Under the pieces are notes generated by a model, which saw only the letters and a list, made by a program, of their open reading frames with translations, did not search any database and had not been told where the DNA came from. This document shows, piece by piece, positions 14,263 to 25,503 of a DNA stretch of 27,635 bases (position 1 is the stretch's first letter; each line of letters starts with the position of its first letter). Made by a program: the position numbers and the translations under genes. Source of the DNA: a virus. The stretch covers positions 1-27,635 of IMG/VR virus record IMGVR_UViG_3300037485_000747; one strand, 5' to 3'.

Positions 14263-15090
14263 TTAATATTCTTCTTTACCTTGTTTTGATGTAGCATATA
14301 TCTTTAAATCATCTTTATCTGGAAAATGCTTTCTCATTGTTTTTACATTTCTTAGGTCATCATCTGAAAAACCAATATATGGTGTAAAATAATTACTAAT
14401 TTTGTTCTTCATAAATGCCTTCTCTTGTAATTGTTGTGAAAGGTGTCTAACATACATCATAAATTCTTGCATAGCCTTAACTTTTAATTCTTCGGGATTC
14501 GCGGCAGAACCTTCACCAAAAGTTACAGGATGATATTTACCCATATCCAAATAAGCCCTTATTAATTCATCATCAGATAAATCTTCTTCATCCGCTAATT
14601 CTCTATATTTTCTAAGATTTTTAACCAGTTCTTTTGAAGACAATCCGTGTTTGTTTTGTTTAATCAAATTATAAACCGCTTGTTTGAGGATTGAAGGCGT
14701 GTGTCCCCTTGCTGTGATGATTGAGAAAATAGACCCGTTATTAACCGCCTCAACAAAGTCACTCCATGCAGGTCCCGTTTCAGCCGTCATTGCGTCTTTT
14801 AAGAACGCTTTATCACCGGGGATTTTAAAGTCTCTGAATGCTTCGTCATCAAAACCTACTATAGTATGTCCTTCATATGTGAAAGGTTCTTTACCGATTT
14901 CAGTTCTATGTTCGGCAAAATCTTCGGTAGACATACCAACAGTTTTTCCTTTATCGTCTTTCAAATAAATCTTGGTTGGCATGTACATTAAATTGTCATC
15001 CCAGTCAAAAGCATAATACTTCATCGTAGGTTTCATCTGATCGTGAATAATCTCACTCAGTATTTCTCGTACTACTTTTTTATAATTCAT
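14263..15090 (-). CDS. HAD-superfamily phosphatase-like protein
   Basis: A 275-residue protein with haloacid dehalogenase motifs: motif I YAFDWDDN (nucleophile Asp29, Asp31), motif II IITARGH (Thr126), a candidate Lys for motif III (Lys228 or Lys230) and motif IV GFSDDD (Asp243-Asp245). The third position of the DxDx(T/V) motif is Asn. HAD enzymes of this kind hydrolyse small phosphoesters or act on nucleic acid ends; the substrate here is unknown. The region ~55-110 is a cap-like insertion. The N-terminal peptide, residues 1-13, ends in ILSE and resembles a T4-style (I/L)xE prohead protease site, so packaging into the capsid is possible. It sits alone between the sheath terminator and the tube gene with its own TATTTAT element only 4 nt before the ATG. 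Confidence 0.8.
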   Translation of the reverse strand: MNYKKVVREILSEIIHDQMKPTMKYYAFDWDDNLMYMPTKIYLKDDKGKTVGMSTEDFAEHRTEIGKEPFTYEGHTIVGFDDEAFRDFKIPGDKAFLKDAMTAETGPAWSDFVEAVNNGSIFSIITARGHTPSILKQAVYNLIKQNKHGLSSKELVKNLRKYRELADEEDLSDDELIRAYLDMGKYHPVTFGEGSAANPEELKVKAMQEFMMYVRHLSQQLQEKAFMKNKISNYFTPYIGFSDDDLRNVKTMRKHFPDKDDLKIYATSKQGKEEY

Positions 15091-20413: not shown

Positions 20414-22177
20414 TTGGAAAATAGTCAATCACTTATAGAACATAAGGCACTTGATCTGTTGGACTCATATAGTGGGGGTAATAACCACATCCTATATTTA
20501 CAAAACAAGAAATTAAGTTCAAAAAAGTTTTATCCAACAAGAACTCAAGCCGAGTATATTGTAAATTATTATAATACACCACCAAAGGTTGCTCGTAAGT
20601 GGGTTGACCTTGATACGTACTTTGCTAAAAAGTTTGCTGAAGAACGTTATCTTTTAGAAACACCTGAAAAAATCTACATTGAGAAGTTATTGGTAGAAAA
20701 AGAAAAGTCTTACCACATTTGGGGTAAGTTCTTTGAGAAAGATCCATTAACAGAGTTTTGGGTTCCAAAATCATCTTTAATTAAAACTCACACGGTTGAA
20801 AGAGTTGCTGTTGATTATACCAAATACGGTCACCGACCACCTCTTGAGCACCAAAAAGAAGCTATTGAAAAATTAGTTGGATCTAAAAGGTTCATTCTTG
20901 CTGATGATATGGGATTAGGTAAAACAACCTCAACAATTATTGCGGCACTTGAGACAGGTGCCAAAAAAATCTTAATCGTTTGTCCCGCATCATTAAAGAT
21001 TAACTGGCAACGAGAAATTGAAAATTATTCAGATAGACCTGTTTTTATTGCAGAAGGTAAAAAATTTTCAACTGAGTCTGATTTTGTTATCGTTAATTAT
21101 GATATCCTAAAAAACTTCCACGATCCAAAAGAAAAAGATAGTTCATTATTAAACCAATCAAATTTTGATTTGGTAATCTTGGATGAGGCACATATGATAT
21201 CAAATGCTCAGGCTCAAAGAACAAGAATCATTAACCACTTTGTTAAACAAATTAAAAGAGTTTGGTTGTTAACGGGAACACCAATGACTTCTCGTCCAAT
21301 GAATTATTACAATTTGTTAAATATAATTGAAAGTCCTGTTGCTCAAAATTGGATGGCTTACGCTATTCGTTATTGTCAAGGATATCAATTCACCGCAGGT
21401 AAAAGAAAAGTTTGGAACGTATCGGGAGCCTCTAACTTAGAGGAACTAAGAGATAGAACCGCAAAACAAATTCTTCGTAGATTAAAAGAAAACGTATTGG
21501 ATCTACCTGACAAAATTATTAGTCCCGTTTATTTAAGACTCCAATCAAAAGATTACGAAAGTCTTATGGGTGAATATTATGATTGGTACGATAAAAATAC
21601 GGATGAGTCATCATCACTTACGGTTCAGTTCTCAAAACTAATGAAAGTTAGAAAAGTTATTGCAAATGAAAAAGTTAAACAAACAATTGAGTTTGCTGAG
21701 AACATTTTGGAACAAGGTAAGAAAGTAATCATCTTTACCAACTTTACTGACACACTTCAAAGTATCTACCAACACTTCGGTAAAAAGGCTGTTTATCTTG
21801 ACGGTAGTTGTTCAAACTCACAACGTCAACAAGCTGTTGACCTATTTCAGAACGATGAAAAGATTCAGGTGTTTGTTGGAAACTTAAAGGCTGCTGGTGT
21901 TGGATTAACTCTTACTTCCGCTGAGGTTGTTATAATGAATGACTTATCTTTTGTTCCTGCAGAACACGCACAAGCCGAGGATAGAGCGTATCGTTACGGA
22001 CAAAAATCTAATGTACTTGTGTATTACCCATTGTTTGATAATACAATTGAAGGTGCGATCTATGACATTCTTAACAAGAAGAAACAAATCATTAATACCG
22101 TTATGGGTGATGGCGTTATTGAAAACCCTGGTGATGTTGCTGAGGAAATCCTTAAACTAATAAACAAAAGAAGGTAA
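20414..22177 (+). CDS. SNF2-family DNA helicase/translocase
   Basis: A 587-residue superfamily 2 ATPase. Walker A is ADDMGLGKT (163-171), motif II is DEAH (257-260), motif III is LTGTP (286-290), and motif VI is AEDRAYRYGQ (521-530), typical of SNF2/Rad54/HepA-like motors. The N-terminal ~130 residues are a family-specific domain of unknown role. Such phage enzymes act in recombination-dependent replication, fork regression or repair, comparable in function to T4 UvsW. The only possible start near the 5' end is TTG at 20414-20416: an in-frame TAA lies at 20402-20404, and the first in-frame ATG is within the Walker A motif. The gene lacks a TATTTAT element on its own strand, unlike its late-gene neighbours, so it probably uses another promoter class. 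It lies 31 nt upstream of the fusion gene. Confidence 0.93.
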   Translation: MENSQSLIEHKALDLLDSYSGGNNHILYLQNKKLSSKKFYPTRTQAEYIVNYYNTPPKVARKWVDLDTYFAKKFAEERYLLETPEKIYIEKLLVEKEKSYHIWGKFFEKDPLTEFWVPKSSLIKTHTVERVAVDYTKYGHRPPLEHQKEAIEKLVGSKRFILADDMGLGKTTSTIIAALETGAKKILIVCPASLKINWQREIENYSDRPVFIAEGKKFSTESDFVIVNYDILKNFHDPKEKDSSLLNQSNFDLVILDEAHMISNAQAQRTRIINHFVKQIKRVWLLTGTPMTSRPMNYYNLLNIIESPVAQNWMAYAIRYCQGYQFTAGKRKVWNVSGASNLEELRDRTAKQILRRLKENVLDLPDKIISPVYLRLQSKDYESLMGEYYDWYDKNTDESSSLTVQFSKLMKVRKVIANEKVKQTIEFAENILEQGKKVIIFTNFTDTLQSIYQHFGKKAVYLDGSCSNSQRQQAVDLFQNDEKIQVFVGNLKAAGVGLTLTSAEVVIMNDLSFVPAEHAQAEDRAYRYGQKSNVLVYYPLFDNTIEGAIYDILNKKKQIINTVMGDGVIENPGDVAEEILKLINKRR

Positions 22178-22196: not shown

Positions 22197-22203
22197 TATT
22201 TAT
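22197..22203 (+). promoter_or_regulatory. TATTTAT element upstream of the superoxide dismutase fusion gene
   Basis: The plus strand reads GGGATATTTATCTATA before the ATG at 22209, leaving 5 nt. It shares GATATTTATC with the gp14-like copy, tying this gene to the late structural regulon. Confidence 0.55.
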
Positions 22204-22208
22204 CTATA

Positions 22209-24344
22209 ATGAAAGTCTCAATCAACCATGTAAAATGTGATATGTCTAAGGAAGACAAAAGTCTTGCTAAGAAATTTATTGCGTTTTTACAGACACAATA
22301 TCCATTAAAGAAAGATTTAAAGATTACTTTTTTAGGTGATAGAAAAGGAAAAATGTCTACAGGTAGTAGAACAACTGACTCCGAATTAAAAATATTAACT
22401 AAGGGTAGACTTAATCGCGATATCTTAAGAACATTAGCTCACGAGTGGGTTCACGAACATCAACTAACAATCTTAAATAGAGAACACGGACCGGACATCG
22501 GTGGTAAGAATGAAGACGAAGCAAATGCATTCGCTGGTCAACTTATTAAAATGTTTGAGAAAAAATTCCCAAATAAAGAAGAAATGATGTATGAAAGTAA
22601 GGGAATTGAAAGGAGATTGGTAATCATTAACGAACAACTTTTAATTACAGAAAAAGAAACAATTAAGGAAAACTTAATCGTTGAAATGAAAAAGATTGGT
22701 ATTGAAAAATTACCTTATTCGTATTCATCATTAAAGAAATTCATAGACTCCAAAACAATGGATGTTCATTACAACAAACACTATAAAGGGTATGTTAAAA
22801 AATTAAACGACGCTTTGAGGAACAAAGATGGTGATATGGAGTTGGAAGAAATTGTTAAATCAATCAGTAAGTTTGACGATAAGGTTAGAAATAATGCTGG
22901 TGGTGCTTTTAATCACGCATTATTTTGGAAAATGTTATCTCCAAAGAAACAATTACCAAAAGGTGAAATCCTGAAAAAAATAATATCTGATTTTGGCAAT
23001 GTTAAAAAACTAAAGGATGAGTTTAATGAAGCGGCAAAAGATCGTTTTGGATCAGGTTGGGCTTGGTTGTATCTTGCGAAAGATGGTAAGTTAAAAATTA
23101 TGTCCACACCAAATCAAGATAACCCTTTAATGAATATCGTTAAAGGTGGTGGGTATCCACTTCTTGGTCTTGATGTTTGGGAACATGCTTATTATTTAAA
23201 ATACCAAAACAAAAGAGATGAATACATTAAAAAGTTTTGGGACGTTGTAAATTGGGAGTTTGTTAATGAACTTTATGAATTAAAAACAAAAAAGAAAAAC
23301 TTAAAAGAAAATGTTGATGTTAAAAAAATATTGTCCGAAGCAAAAAACACATCGTTTCCTTTAACACCAAAACAAATAAGAACATTAATTGCCTCACAAT
23401 ATGAAGGTTGTTTTAATCAACAATACAAATATGGTTGTATTGGTAAAATAGAAACAAGAAAATGTAATACCGATGAAGGTGTTTTAGGTGGTGAATACTC
23501 TGAGAAAAAACATGGGGGTAAAAGTCAATGGTCAGTTGTTAATCGTTTTGATACCAATAGTAAAGTTAAAGATGAAATCCAAAAAATATGGATGGAAGAG
23601 ACTGAAGGGTTGGATGACTTTAAAACTTGGATTATAAATCACGCTTATGACTTATTTGGTAACGATGGAATGTATCTTGATAGATTGGCGGGACCTAATC
23701 TTGGGACAATTAAAGTTGGTCAACTCAATGAAGATTACGCTAAACAAATAATTAGAGAATCGTATAATTTAAATCCTGATGAAGAAGGAGTTAGTTATGA
23801 ACTTTATGAACATTGTTCTGGCGATATCAACGATAGAAAAAAAGGTCAAGATTTAGTTTTAAAATTTAAAAATGGAGACACATTGTATTTCCAAGTAAAA
23901 CCTGTTGAGTATCAAAAAATAGTTCTATACGATGGTGATGACAGAGGTTATTATTTTGTTGTACCATCTTGGGCGACACAAAGTAAGTATAAGAGTGAAA
24001 ATGTTGATGTATTAGTTTATGTTGATAGACCTAACCAAAAATACATAATGTTTAGAAACGATCACAATAGAATATTAACAATAAGTAATAAGGCTAAATT
24101 CCCCCCTCATTTATTATATTTCTATGAGTTACCACTTAAAAGTAATTTTAAAGTTCCTGTTTCAAAAGAACCAACAAAAGTTCCAACTAAAAATTCTTTA
24201 AACAGAGATTCGGATAAAGAGATAAATTATTATAAAGAAAGAATTAAGTTTTTTCAAGATAAAATAACACAACTTGGTGGATCTCCAGAACTTAATGAAA
24301 TGGTTAAATATTATAAAAAAGAGTTAGATAAAATTATTATTTAA
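22209..24344 (+). CDS. Fusion protein: zincin-like peptidase, Fe/Mn superoxide dismutase, PD-(D/E)XK-like domain
   Basis: A 711-residue protein with three parts. Residues ~1-130: a zincin-like metallopeptidase domain with HEWVH (78-82) and a probable third ligand, Glu104, in the NEDEANAFAG motif; this domain is widespread in phage virion or accessory proteins. Residues ~160-358: a full Fe/Mn superoxide dismutase. All four metal ligands are present: His187 (MDVHYNKHY), His236 (FNHALFW), Asp322 and His326 (LGLDVWEHAYYLK). The second-sphere His191 and Tyr195 are also there, with Gln303 in STPNQDNPLM and Gly at the AGGAFNH site, pointing to the Mn or cambialistic type. Residues ~385-640: a third domain with Asp548, Gln562 and Lys564 in a D-x(13)-QVK pattern, resembling PD-(D/E)XK nucleases. 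The C-terminus (665-711) is coiled coil. Linkers hold LIVE and ILSE, possible prohead protease sites. It lies before the gp13-like neck gene. Domain calls 1 and 2 are firm; the third is tentative. Confidence 0.85.
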   Translation: MKVSINHVKCDMSKEDKSLAKKFIAFLQTQYPLKKDLKITFLGDRKGKMSTGSRTTDSELKILTKGRLNRDILRTLAHEWVHEHQLTILNREHGPDIGGKNEDEANAFAGQLIKMFEKKFPNKEEMMYESKGIERRLVIINEQLLITEKETIKENLIVEMKKIGIEKLPYSYSSLKKFIDSKTMDVHYNKHYKGYVKKLNDALRNKDGDMELEEIVKSISKFDDKVRNNAGGAFNHALFWKMLSPKKQLPKGEILKKIISDFGNVKKLKDEFNEAAKDRFGSGWAWLYLAKDGKLKIMSTPNQDNPLMNIVKGGGYPLLGLDVWEHAYYLKYQNKRDEYIKKFWDVVNWEFVNELYELKTKKKNLKENVDVKKILSEAKNTSFPLTPKQIRTLIASQYEGCFNQQYKYGCIGKIETRKCNTDEGVLGGEYSEKKHGGKSQWSVVNRFDTNSKVKDEIQKIWMEETEGLDDFKTWIINHAYDLFGNDGMYLDRLAGPNLGTIKVGQLNEDYAKQIIRESYNLNPDEEGVSYELYEHCSGDINDRKKGQDLVLKFKNGDTLYFQVKPVEYQKIVLYDGDDRGYYFVVPSWATQSKYKSENVDVLVYVDRPNQKYIMFRNDHNRILTISNKAKFPPHLLYFYELPLKSNFKVPVSKEPTKVPTKNSLNRDSDKEINYYKERIKFFQDKITQLGGSPELNEMVKYYKKELDKIII

Positions 24345-24359: not shown

Positions 24360-24374
24360 AGAGAAAAACTCTAT
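24358..24374 (+). promoter_or_regulatory. Small hairpin overlapping the gp13-like start codon
   Basis: ATAGAG (24358-24363), loop AAAAA, CTCTAT (24369-24374) gives a perfect 6-bp stem whose last two bases are the first two of the ATG at 24373. It could lower initiation when folded. It may also be a chance feature of this AT-rich leader. Confidence 0.35.
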
Positions 24375-25503
24375 GGCAATTATTGACGAACCGGAAAGAA
24401 GTAAACTTTACCAAAAGATTAGACACTTATTGGGAGCACCTTTAAGATCAGTTGAACTTGAGGATGAGATGATGGATACTCTATTAGAATTTTCCATTGA
24501 CGATTATTCACAATACGTACAGGATTGGTTGATTGAGGCTCAGTGGACATCATTAGATAATCTTAACTTAGACACACAATCACTTTCAAGAGCATTCCTA
24601 ACCAAAAGTTTAAACTTTGAGGACAGGTACACATACGCATACTCAAAGATTGTTGGTCTACAAGCCGGTGGTGATTGGGTCATTAAAAAAGATTATGTTC
24701 AGTTGGCTCCTAACCAACAGATATATGAAATACCGGCAGGTCGTGAAATCAATGAAGTATTATGGTTTACACCCGCAACTCTTAACAATTTAATGTTTGA
24801 CCCCTGGTCTTTCGGATCTTTAGGTGCGGGAACAGGTCTTGGTGGTGGAGGTGGTCTTGCTCAGATGGGTAACATGGCGGGAAGTTATTTCTTAACACCG
24901 GCTTTTGATATGTTATTAAGAATGCAAGAAATCAATATCCAAAAAAGAATATTACAAGGTGATTTAACTTATTATATTACCGCATTACCTGAAGGTAAAA
25001 AAGCGTTACACCTTTTGAATACTCCTGGTGGTAAGTTTGACTTTGGTAATGGTGAGTTAATGCAAGGTAGAGTTTGGTATTGGTATTATGACTTAGGTCA
25101 AGGAGATAGGGATCAATGTTTGGCGGACAACCCCGATATCATTAGATTACCATCTGACGTACCATTTGATAAAATTAGTTGGTACAAATTAAATAATCCG
25201 GCTCAGGTTTGGGTTCGTAGATGGTTTACCGCTTATTGTAAAGAAACATTGGCAAGAGTTCGTGGTAAGTTTAGTGGAAACTTAAAAACACCTGATGGTG
25301 GTGACTTAACTATGGATTACACTATACTTGCAACTGAAGCCAAAGATGAAAAGTCAAAGTTAATTGATGAACTTATTGGACCTGAAGGTAGATTAACAAG
25401 ATTAAAACCTGAAAAAGTTATGGAGAGAGAAGCGTTACTTGCCGAAAACCTTAACAAACAAATGAAGTTTAGGGCAATGCCAAGACAAATATATGTAATT
25501 TAA
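24373..25503 (+). CDS. gp13-like neck protein
   Basis: A 376-residue protein resembling the T4 gp13 neck protein group of marine T4-like phages. The N-terminus (RKLYQKIRHLLGAP-like, residues 9-23, then ELEDEMMDTLLEFSIDDY) matches the gp13 pattern 'G-P...-eltd-ql...a-dDy'. The C-terminal block (residues 278-330: VWVRRWFTAYCKETLARVRG, then KFSG-L-PDGGDLTMD and acidic helix EAKDEKSKL) is the most diagnostic part. Neck proteins close the portal after packaging and receive the tail. A Gly-rich loop (148-170, with runs GAGTGLGGGGGL) is an unusual insertion. T4 gp13 is 309 residues. Its partner gp14/gp15-like genes lie about 4 kb away on the opposite strand. The gene reads through with a 4-nt gap into the next small gene. 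Confidence 0.7.
   Translation: MAIIDEPERSKLYQKIRHLLGAPLRSVELEDEMMDTLLEFSIDDYSQYVQDWLIEAQWTSLDNLNLDTQSLSRAFLTKSLNFEDRYTYAYSKIVGLQAGGDWVIKKDYVQLAPNQQIYEIPAGREINEVLWFTPATLNNLMFDPWSFGSLGAGTGLGGGGGLAQMGNMAGSYFLTPAFDMLLRMQEINIQKRILQGDLTYYITALPEGKKALHLLNTPGGKFDFGNGELMQGRVWYWYYDLGQGDRDQCLADNPDIIRLPSDVPFDKISWYKLNNPAQVWVRRWFTAYCKETLARVRGKFSGNLKTPDGGDLTMDYTILATEAKDEKSKLIDELIGPEGRLTRLKPEKVMEREALLAENLNKQMKFRAMPRQIYVI

Follow-up and report, generated by a model that had tools for sequence, protein, structure and literature searches.

Among the known systems closest to the arrangement reported here are the T4 internal proteins IPI, IPII and IPIII and the Alt protein, which bear a capsid targeting sequence and are cleaved by gp21 (PMC9026906, PMC3012670). 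Short N-terminal propeptides direct such cargo into the head (PMC9026906; PMC9958956), where the gp21 prohead protease cuts after the Glu of L/I-X-E (PMC9026906). A late protein, (L/I)-x-E sites and a variable cargo are common to T4 and to the present locus, and, as in T4, a Peptidase_S77 prohead protease and a gp23-type capsid protein are encoded in relatives, together with many tagged genes. However, T4 cargo consists of single proteins with a terminal propeptide, whereas the gene studied here encodes a multi-enzyme chain with sites between its modules and an untagged N-terminus; as the propeptide is missing there, the protein would work like a T4 internal protein rather than be one. The ejection (inner-body) proteins of phiKZ-like giant phages are also similar, in that a gp21-related protease cuts them C-terminal to Glu and they are ejected (PMC5694885, PMC9026906). 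Their motif is S/A-x-E, unlike the (L/I)-x-E found here. To our knowledge, no multi-enzyme polyprotein containing a superoxide dismutase (SOD) exists in phiKZ-like phages.

Viral SODs have been described as well. Chlorovirus PBCV-1 packages in its virion a Cu/Zn SOD, encoded by the late gene a245r and proposed to lower superoxide during infection (PMC7019647). The likeness lies in a late viral SOD inside the particle (a presumed location for the protein studied here), while the Cu/Zn fold, the standalone protein and the algal virus set it apart. By analogy, the SOD part has a precedent in the chlorovirus enzyme, and injected cargo has precedents in T4 IPI and Alt. Fe/Mn SODs of the same superfamily occur in Vibrio phage 2.275.O and PA5oct-like phages, being 29-30% identical to the present one in the SOD region only; that of Vibrio phage 2.275.O is a separate gene, unlike the fusion described below.

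The fusion gene and its domains

The window, as we call the whole stretch of 27,635 nucleotides of viral DNA analyzed (IMG/VR record IMGVR_UViG_3300037485_000747), contains a single open frame of 711 codons, with no competing frame, and the following features:

22209..24344, + strand: whole fusion gene, 711 aa, comprising a zincin-like domain, linker 1, MnSOD, linker 2 and the nuclease-like domain CtA (open reading frame, Pfam, AlphaFold2 model)
22209..22598, + strand: zincin-like domain, residues 1-130, with HEWVH at 78-82 and invariant E102/E104 (BFVD match, standalone homologue)
22599..22691, + strand: linker 1, residues 131-161, of low model confidence, with (L/I)xE at E142, E148, E154 and E159
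22692..23288, + strand: Fe/Mn SOD domain, residues 162-360, Mn-type (Gln303 in NQDNP), with all metal ligands (Pfam, alignment, fold match)
23289..23351, + strand: linker 2, residues 361-381, disordered, with (L/I)xE sites NLKE367/N and ILSE377/A (slash, putative cut)
23352..24341, + strand: nuclease-like module CtA, residues 382-711, with E508, D548, Q562-x-K564 and a C-terminal helical hairpin (model, fold match)
22197..22203, + strand: TATTTAT late-type element upstream of the fusion gene
20414..22177, + strand: SNF2/UvsW-like helicase, conserved upstream neighbour
24373..25503, + strand: neck protein (head-tail adaptor Ad2 type), conserved downstream neighbour

The original prediction had proposed one 711-residue chain holding zincin, SOD and D...QxK parts, encoded between a helicase and a neck gene. 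Both proposals were confirmed: from its sequence, the protein combines a zincin-like metalloprotease domain, an apparently intact Fe/Mn SOD and, after it, a nuclease-like domain with the E508/D548/Q562-x-K564 residues, and the gene is preceded by the SNF2/UvsW-like helicase and followed by a gp13-type neck protein (PHROG "head-tail adaptor Ad2"). Pfam matches on the whole protein fall in the SOD part only.

In the zincin-like domain, an HExxH motif is accompanied by a downstream Glu, and H78, E79, H82, E102, D103, E104, A105 and N106 are invariant. The motif was expected several times ahead of the SOD; it is indeed there, but occurs once. Searches with this domain against Pfam, NCBIfam and PDB sequences gave no profile or sequence match beyond chance level. 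A BFVD fold search, in turn, matched it to a 127-residue phage protein at TM 0.91 to the target and to proteins of phages that carry the annotation "IrrE N-terminal-like" (E 1.3e-4), and because of these fold matches an ImmA/IrrE-type metallopeptidase is its most likely identity. A standalone homologue of 128 aa was found in a related contig (L163:6193-6579), and a hypothetical protein of the cyanophage Synechococcus phage S-SRM01 (H29, 164851-165183) is 30% identical to the zincin domain.

The SOD domain was recognized by Pfam (Sod_Fe_N at 166-244, 3.6e-20; Sod_Fe_C at 250-354, 1.4e-40), both parts exceeding the gathering cut-off (137.9 against 20.9 bits and 72.7 against 27 bits), and by the NCBIfam MnSOD model at 3e-60, yet under its curated equivalog cut-off (203.6 of 363 bits). 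The ligands H187, H236, D322 and H326, the second-sphere H191/Y195 and the Q303-D304 pair are all where they had been predicted, and all of them are invariant in a 38-row alignment. Among 116 distinct SOD modules, one deviates in HYNKHYKGY and four in the residues flanking the D/H ligand motif. An SOD fold is present in the predicted model (Z about 20 against solved SODs), with SODs at the top of 258 PDB matches at E <= 0.001; Foldseek aligned this part with the Sphingobacterium MnSOD 6gsc_A at 51% identity over the alignment (E 2.1e-18). Model residue 162 corresponds to residue 1-3 of the solved SODs, and the stretch at the N-terminal side of the SOD is partly of low model confidence. The Gln in the NQDNP loop suggests a Mn or cambialistic type. 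With a dN/dS of 0.07-0.09, the SOD is under strong purifying selection; this value and the 116 distinct modules rule out a chance motif or frame artefact. Repurposing of the SOD as a structural fold is disfavoured by the near-invariant ligands together with this selection, and its retention as a degenerate scaffold is rejected; the domain is apparently a working enzyme, its activity being predicted.

Phylogenetically, the phage SODs form a single clade (100/100) on a long stem, and their identity to the best-matching SODs of Bacteroidota is about 50%. No zincin-SOD fusion was seen in the 80 top-ranking genome contigs, where the matches are almost all confined to the SOD; one contig (L333) has a longer match span than the others. 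The single clade, its long stem and the lack of the fusion in those contigs rule out recent host contamination. In a record labelled as a freshwater phage (MW462191.1, L378), an SOD is surrounded by transpeptidase, aminotransferase and efflux genes, and this DNA seems to be of bacterial rather than phage origin.

CtA alone (330 residues) was modelled at pLDDT 87.5. In module numbering, its E127, D167, Q181 and K183 do not vary across 32 sequences with identities as low as 26%, and the E-D-QxK positions are as expected for a PD-(D/E)XK nuclease. Fold matches cover model residues 116-265, a common region for I-Ssp6803I (E 2.7e-3, Z 7.5), the SPARDA nuclease (Z 7.8), NhoI, Eco15I, DpnI, Hjc and HinP1I; as these scores are modest (all Z below 8), the nuclease fold is likely rather than proven. 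Two other modules found at this position in relatives, CtB and CtC, are judged nuclease-like from their motifs alone (ExK and SxK, respectively). Profile searches of CtA, CtB and CtC against PDB sequences gave chance-level matches only, no INPHARED phage matched any of the three, and PADLOC returned no result.

The locus and its relatives

The fusion family was found in more than 80 IMG/VR contigs, from uncultured, mostly freshwater T4-related phages. The IMG/VR scan yielded at least 80 loci, and scans with each C-terminal module added further ones; family counts refer to rows unless called distinct, many rows being repeated or near-identical contigs. The C-terminal slot holds one of three unrelated modules (CtA, CtB or CtC) or is empty, leaving a core of 362-367 aa. 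The following arrangements were observed:

With zincin: zincin+SOD+CtA (window); zincin+SOD+CtB; zincin+SOD+CtC; zincin+SOD alone
Without zincin: SOD+CtA-like+CtB; SOD+CtA-like+CtC; SOD+CtB
Split: SOD with a further QxK nuclease-like domain, then CtB or CtA as the next gene
Standalone modules: zincin; CtA; CtB; CtC

In the SOD tree, members bearing CtA and CtB are mixed in supported groups (the window, L001 and L055 with L053; 99/95), and therefore the C-terminal modules have been swapped. Nearly every locus that includes both sides has its SOD gene flanked by this helicase gene and this neck gene. The fusion thus constitutes a family whose modules are shuffled while the locus stays fixed; the original prediction had foreseen neither this nor the linker sites described below. 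In four contigs (L213:3386-4924, L218:3374-4903, L130:3323-4927 and L214:754-2304), the SOD is followed in the same open reading frame by a D...QIKP nuclease-like domain (GGVDAEV...VQIKPY) that differs from CtA, CtB and CtC. The UniProt entry A0A6J5L953, a 501-aa protein of an uncultured Caudovirales phage labelled only "superoxide dismutase", shows 34% identity over 540 columns; too short for the zincin+SOD+CtA arrangement, it is probably the zincin-less SOD-plus-nuclease form of L213 and L218. Another relative encodes a 1003-aa protein (L198:3039-6050, +) with a LETM1-like N-terminal part (by eye), a HEIQH metallopeptidase-like part and CtB. It contains the tag ITEDQYKKL twice in its interior and would be a cargo chain of a second kind.

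The TATTTAT element sits 12 nt 5' of the fusion-gene start. The window holds 15 copies, nine of them 11-67 nt 5' of a gene and on the right strand; besides the SOD fusion, the genes so preceded include tail sheath, tube, hub, tape-measure-like and neck genes, which bears out the claim that the fusion has the same element as virion genes. It was not found upstream of the helicase in the window. Of 99 distinct regions upstream of SOD genes in the relatives, 88 contain it, and in the relative G006 it lies 5' of the portal, terminase, prohead protease, sheath and tube genes; in G006 the helicase also has one, located at most 60 nt away where the intergenic region is divergent. By analogy, its role resembles that of the T4 late promoter and a promoter function may be assumed. 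Late-type expression of the fusion gene is supported. Between the tail tube and sheath genes, the window also encodes, at 14263-15090 (- strand), a protein of 275 aa whose DWDDN motif looks HAD-like by eye; it has a tag-like start (MNYKKVVREILSEII) and a late-type element and is possibly another cargo enzyme.

Constancy of position beside the neck gene and the shared late-type element would also suit a structural or neck-associated virion protein, its domains remaining joined and acting at the head-tail junction or during injection. We regard this as improbable, as module content is highly variable: two relatives have no SOD in the helicase-neck interval, which contains CtB only in one (L232) and a 292-aa protein plus CtB in the other (L241).

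Linkers and putative head-targeting tags

In the AlphaFold2 model, pLDDT falls below 50 over residues 129-171 and 362-381, in contrast to the well-modelled zincin and nuclease domains. The protein has 12 (L/I)xE motifs, six of them within the 52 linker residues. Across non-redundant family linkers, 167 such motifs were observed in linker 1 against 86.5 +/- 7.4 expected, and 113 in linker 2 against 46.7 +/- 5.9, counts never reached in 2,000 composition-preserving shuffles, a statistic that overstates significance since the linker sequences are related and not independent. Other points are stronger than this statistic. Invariant E159 lies three residues ahead of the aligned start of the solved SODs; the zincin-less forms retain this SOD-proximal site, as LISE/AKKIGIEK; and every linker 2 has at least one (L/I)xE site, while proteins without a C-terminal module stop just short of the position of the first of these. 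The linkers thus look like prohead-protease sites, from which the SOD would probably be released as a native-length enzyme.

Could the pattern be merely that of a helical, Glu-rich spacer, the linkers being simple flexible connectors? Linker 1 is helical in the prediction, such spacers are rich in Glu, Lys and Leu, and heptad-like spacing could favour hydrophobic-x-Glu. Nevertheless, [LI]xK, equally possible in a spacer, is at expectation, as are [LI]xD, [LI]xN and [LI]xS; linker 2 is not helical in the model, and tag-like linkers recur between other modules, making this explanation very improbable. We give slightly less credit still to separate products arising by internal translation initiation instead of proteolysis. 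Met160, at the SOD start, is invariant in zincin-containing forms, but its codon is not preceded by a clear Shine-Dalgarno sequence, the zincin-less forms often have Ala there while keeping the (L/I)xE motif, and linker 2 would be left unexplained.

Prohead proteolysis of the chain also agrees with what the relatives encode. The window is a 27.6-kb fragment, and protease and capsid genes were observed in two relatives only, G006 and G002, which encode Peptidase_S77 (7e-24) and gp23 (6e-65). Their major capsid protein has a gp23-like propeptide, alignable with that of T4, with a LINE/ATS site, and the G006 gene adjoining gp23 starts with MDRLNKIIKRVIKE followed by ATSD. Many other genes carry N-terminal tags of the types MKIIITESQYxxLLE and MKRIVRLTESDLxRIVKRVIKE. 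For a tag matrix, only the N-termini encoded by neighbouring, unrelated genes were used (MKIIITESQYxxLLE), SOD-family proteins being excluded. With this matrix, internal linkers of L198, L202, L195 and L237 score 20-27, against a maximum of 13.8 in 336,245 control windows; linkers between the SOD and C-terminal modules score modestly (best listed 9.4, CtC), and the window's own linkers gave no high score. Support from the tags therefore applies to the family, and that from the (L/I)xE motifs to the window. An N-terminal targeting propeptide was not found in the window protein, whose first (L/I)xE is at residue 142, and head targeting would consequently need the internal linkers.

Tagged genes also occur outside the fusion. 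In L195, L198, L202, L208 and L297, consecutive small genes each have a MKIIITESQYxxLLE-type start, like tagged-cargo arrays. The 149-kb relative G006 (L088-L095) has about ten to twenty TESxL-type tagged genes, mostly near one contig end, which are a candidate injected proteome; TATTTAT is found on 8 of 11 tagged genes there, against 49 of 150 genes.

An uncleaved multidomain enzyme, made late and staying in the infected cell as an unpackaged auxiliary antioxidant with extra domains, deserves more weight than the alternatives above, although we still consider it unlikely. Other phages encode standalone SODs (Vibrio phage 2.275.O and the PA5oct group), freshwater phages have been reported to carry genes for defence against reactive oxygen species (PMC6802176), and the core also occurs without a C-terminal module. 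However, such an enzyme leaves unexplained the (L/I)xE enrichment in disordered linkers, the tags common to neighbouring standalone genes and the co-shuffling of nuclease modules. The original prediction of a virion-borne or late-expressed SOD fares well in its second part, given the late-type element, while the linker analysis favours its first part, a presumed virion location.

Proposed fate of the polyprotein

Weighing these results, we lean, with modest confidence, towards a late, capsid-targeted polyprotein that is processed to three enzymes in the prohead and leaves the particle together with the DNA. Its packaging, cleavage and ejection, as well as enzyme activities and targets, are what we infer. 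The polyprotein would be made alongside the virion proteins and enter the prohead core, where a gp21-type prohead protease would cut the (L/I)-x-E sites in both disordered linkers. Three separate enzymes would thereby be freed in the head: a metallopeptidase resembling ImmA/IrrE, a manganese SOD of native length and a nuclease of the PD-(D/E)XK type. Ejected along with the DNA, they would be active during the first minutes of infection. The SOD would clear superoxide around the incoming DNA and proteins, the protease may target a regulatory or defence protein of the host, and the nuclease may attack host or competitor DNA. More tentatively, and just short of an even chance in our judgement, the family may represent a modular cargo strategy, in which interchangeable enzyme modules (metallopeptidase, SOD and at least three nuclease-like types) at the fixed helicase-neck locus are each bounded by capsid-targeting and prohead-protease signals, with new cocktails for host takeover arising by linker recombination.

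Phage SODs and head-packaged injected proteins are each already known. In the searchable literature on SOD fusions, phage polyproteins and capsid targeting in metagenomes, we found no description of the fusion or of a cleavable multi-enzyme cargo chain. The combination of domains had been put forward as possibly undescribed, and this stands for the literature searched, but the fusion is not unique, given its relatives in IMG/VR and the shorter SOD homologue in UniProt. If the proposed route is true, T4-style injected proteins would extend to cleavable multi-enzyme polyproteins, and a sequence tag would be available for reading the injected proteomes of many uncultured phages from metagenomes. 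An active antioxidant enzyme would, moreover, be part of the phage's first protein wave, and a superoxide limit on the start of infection would become testable.
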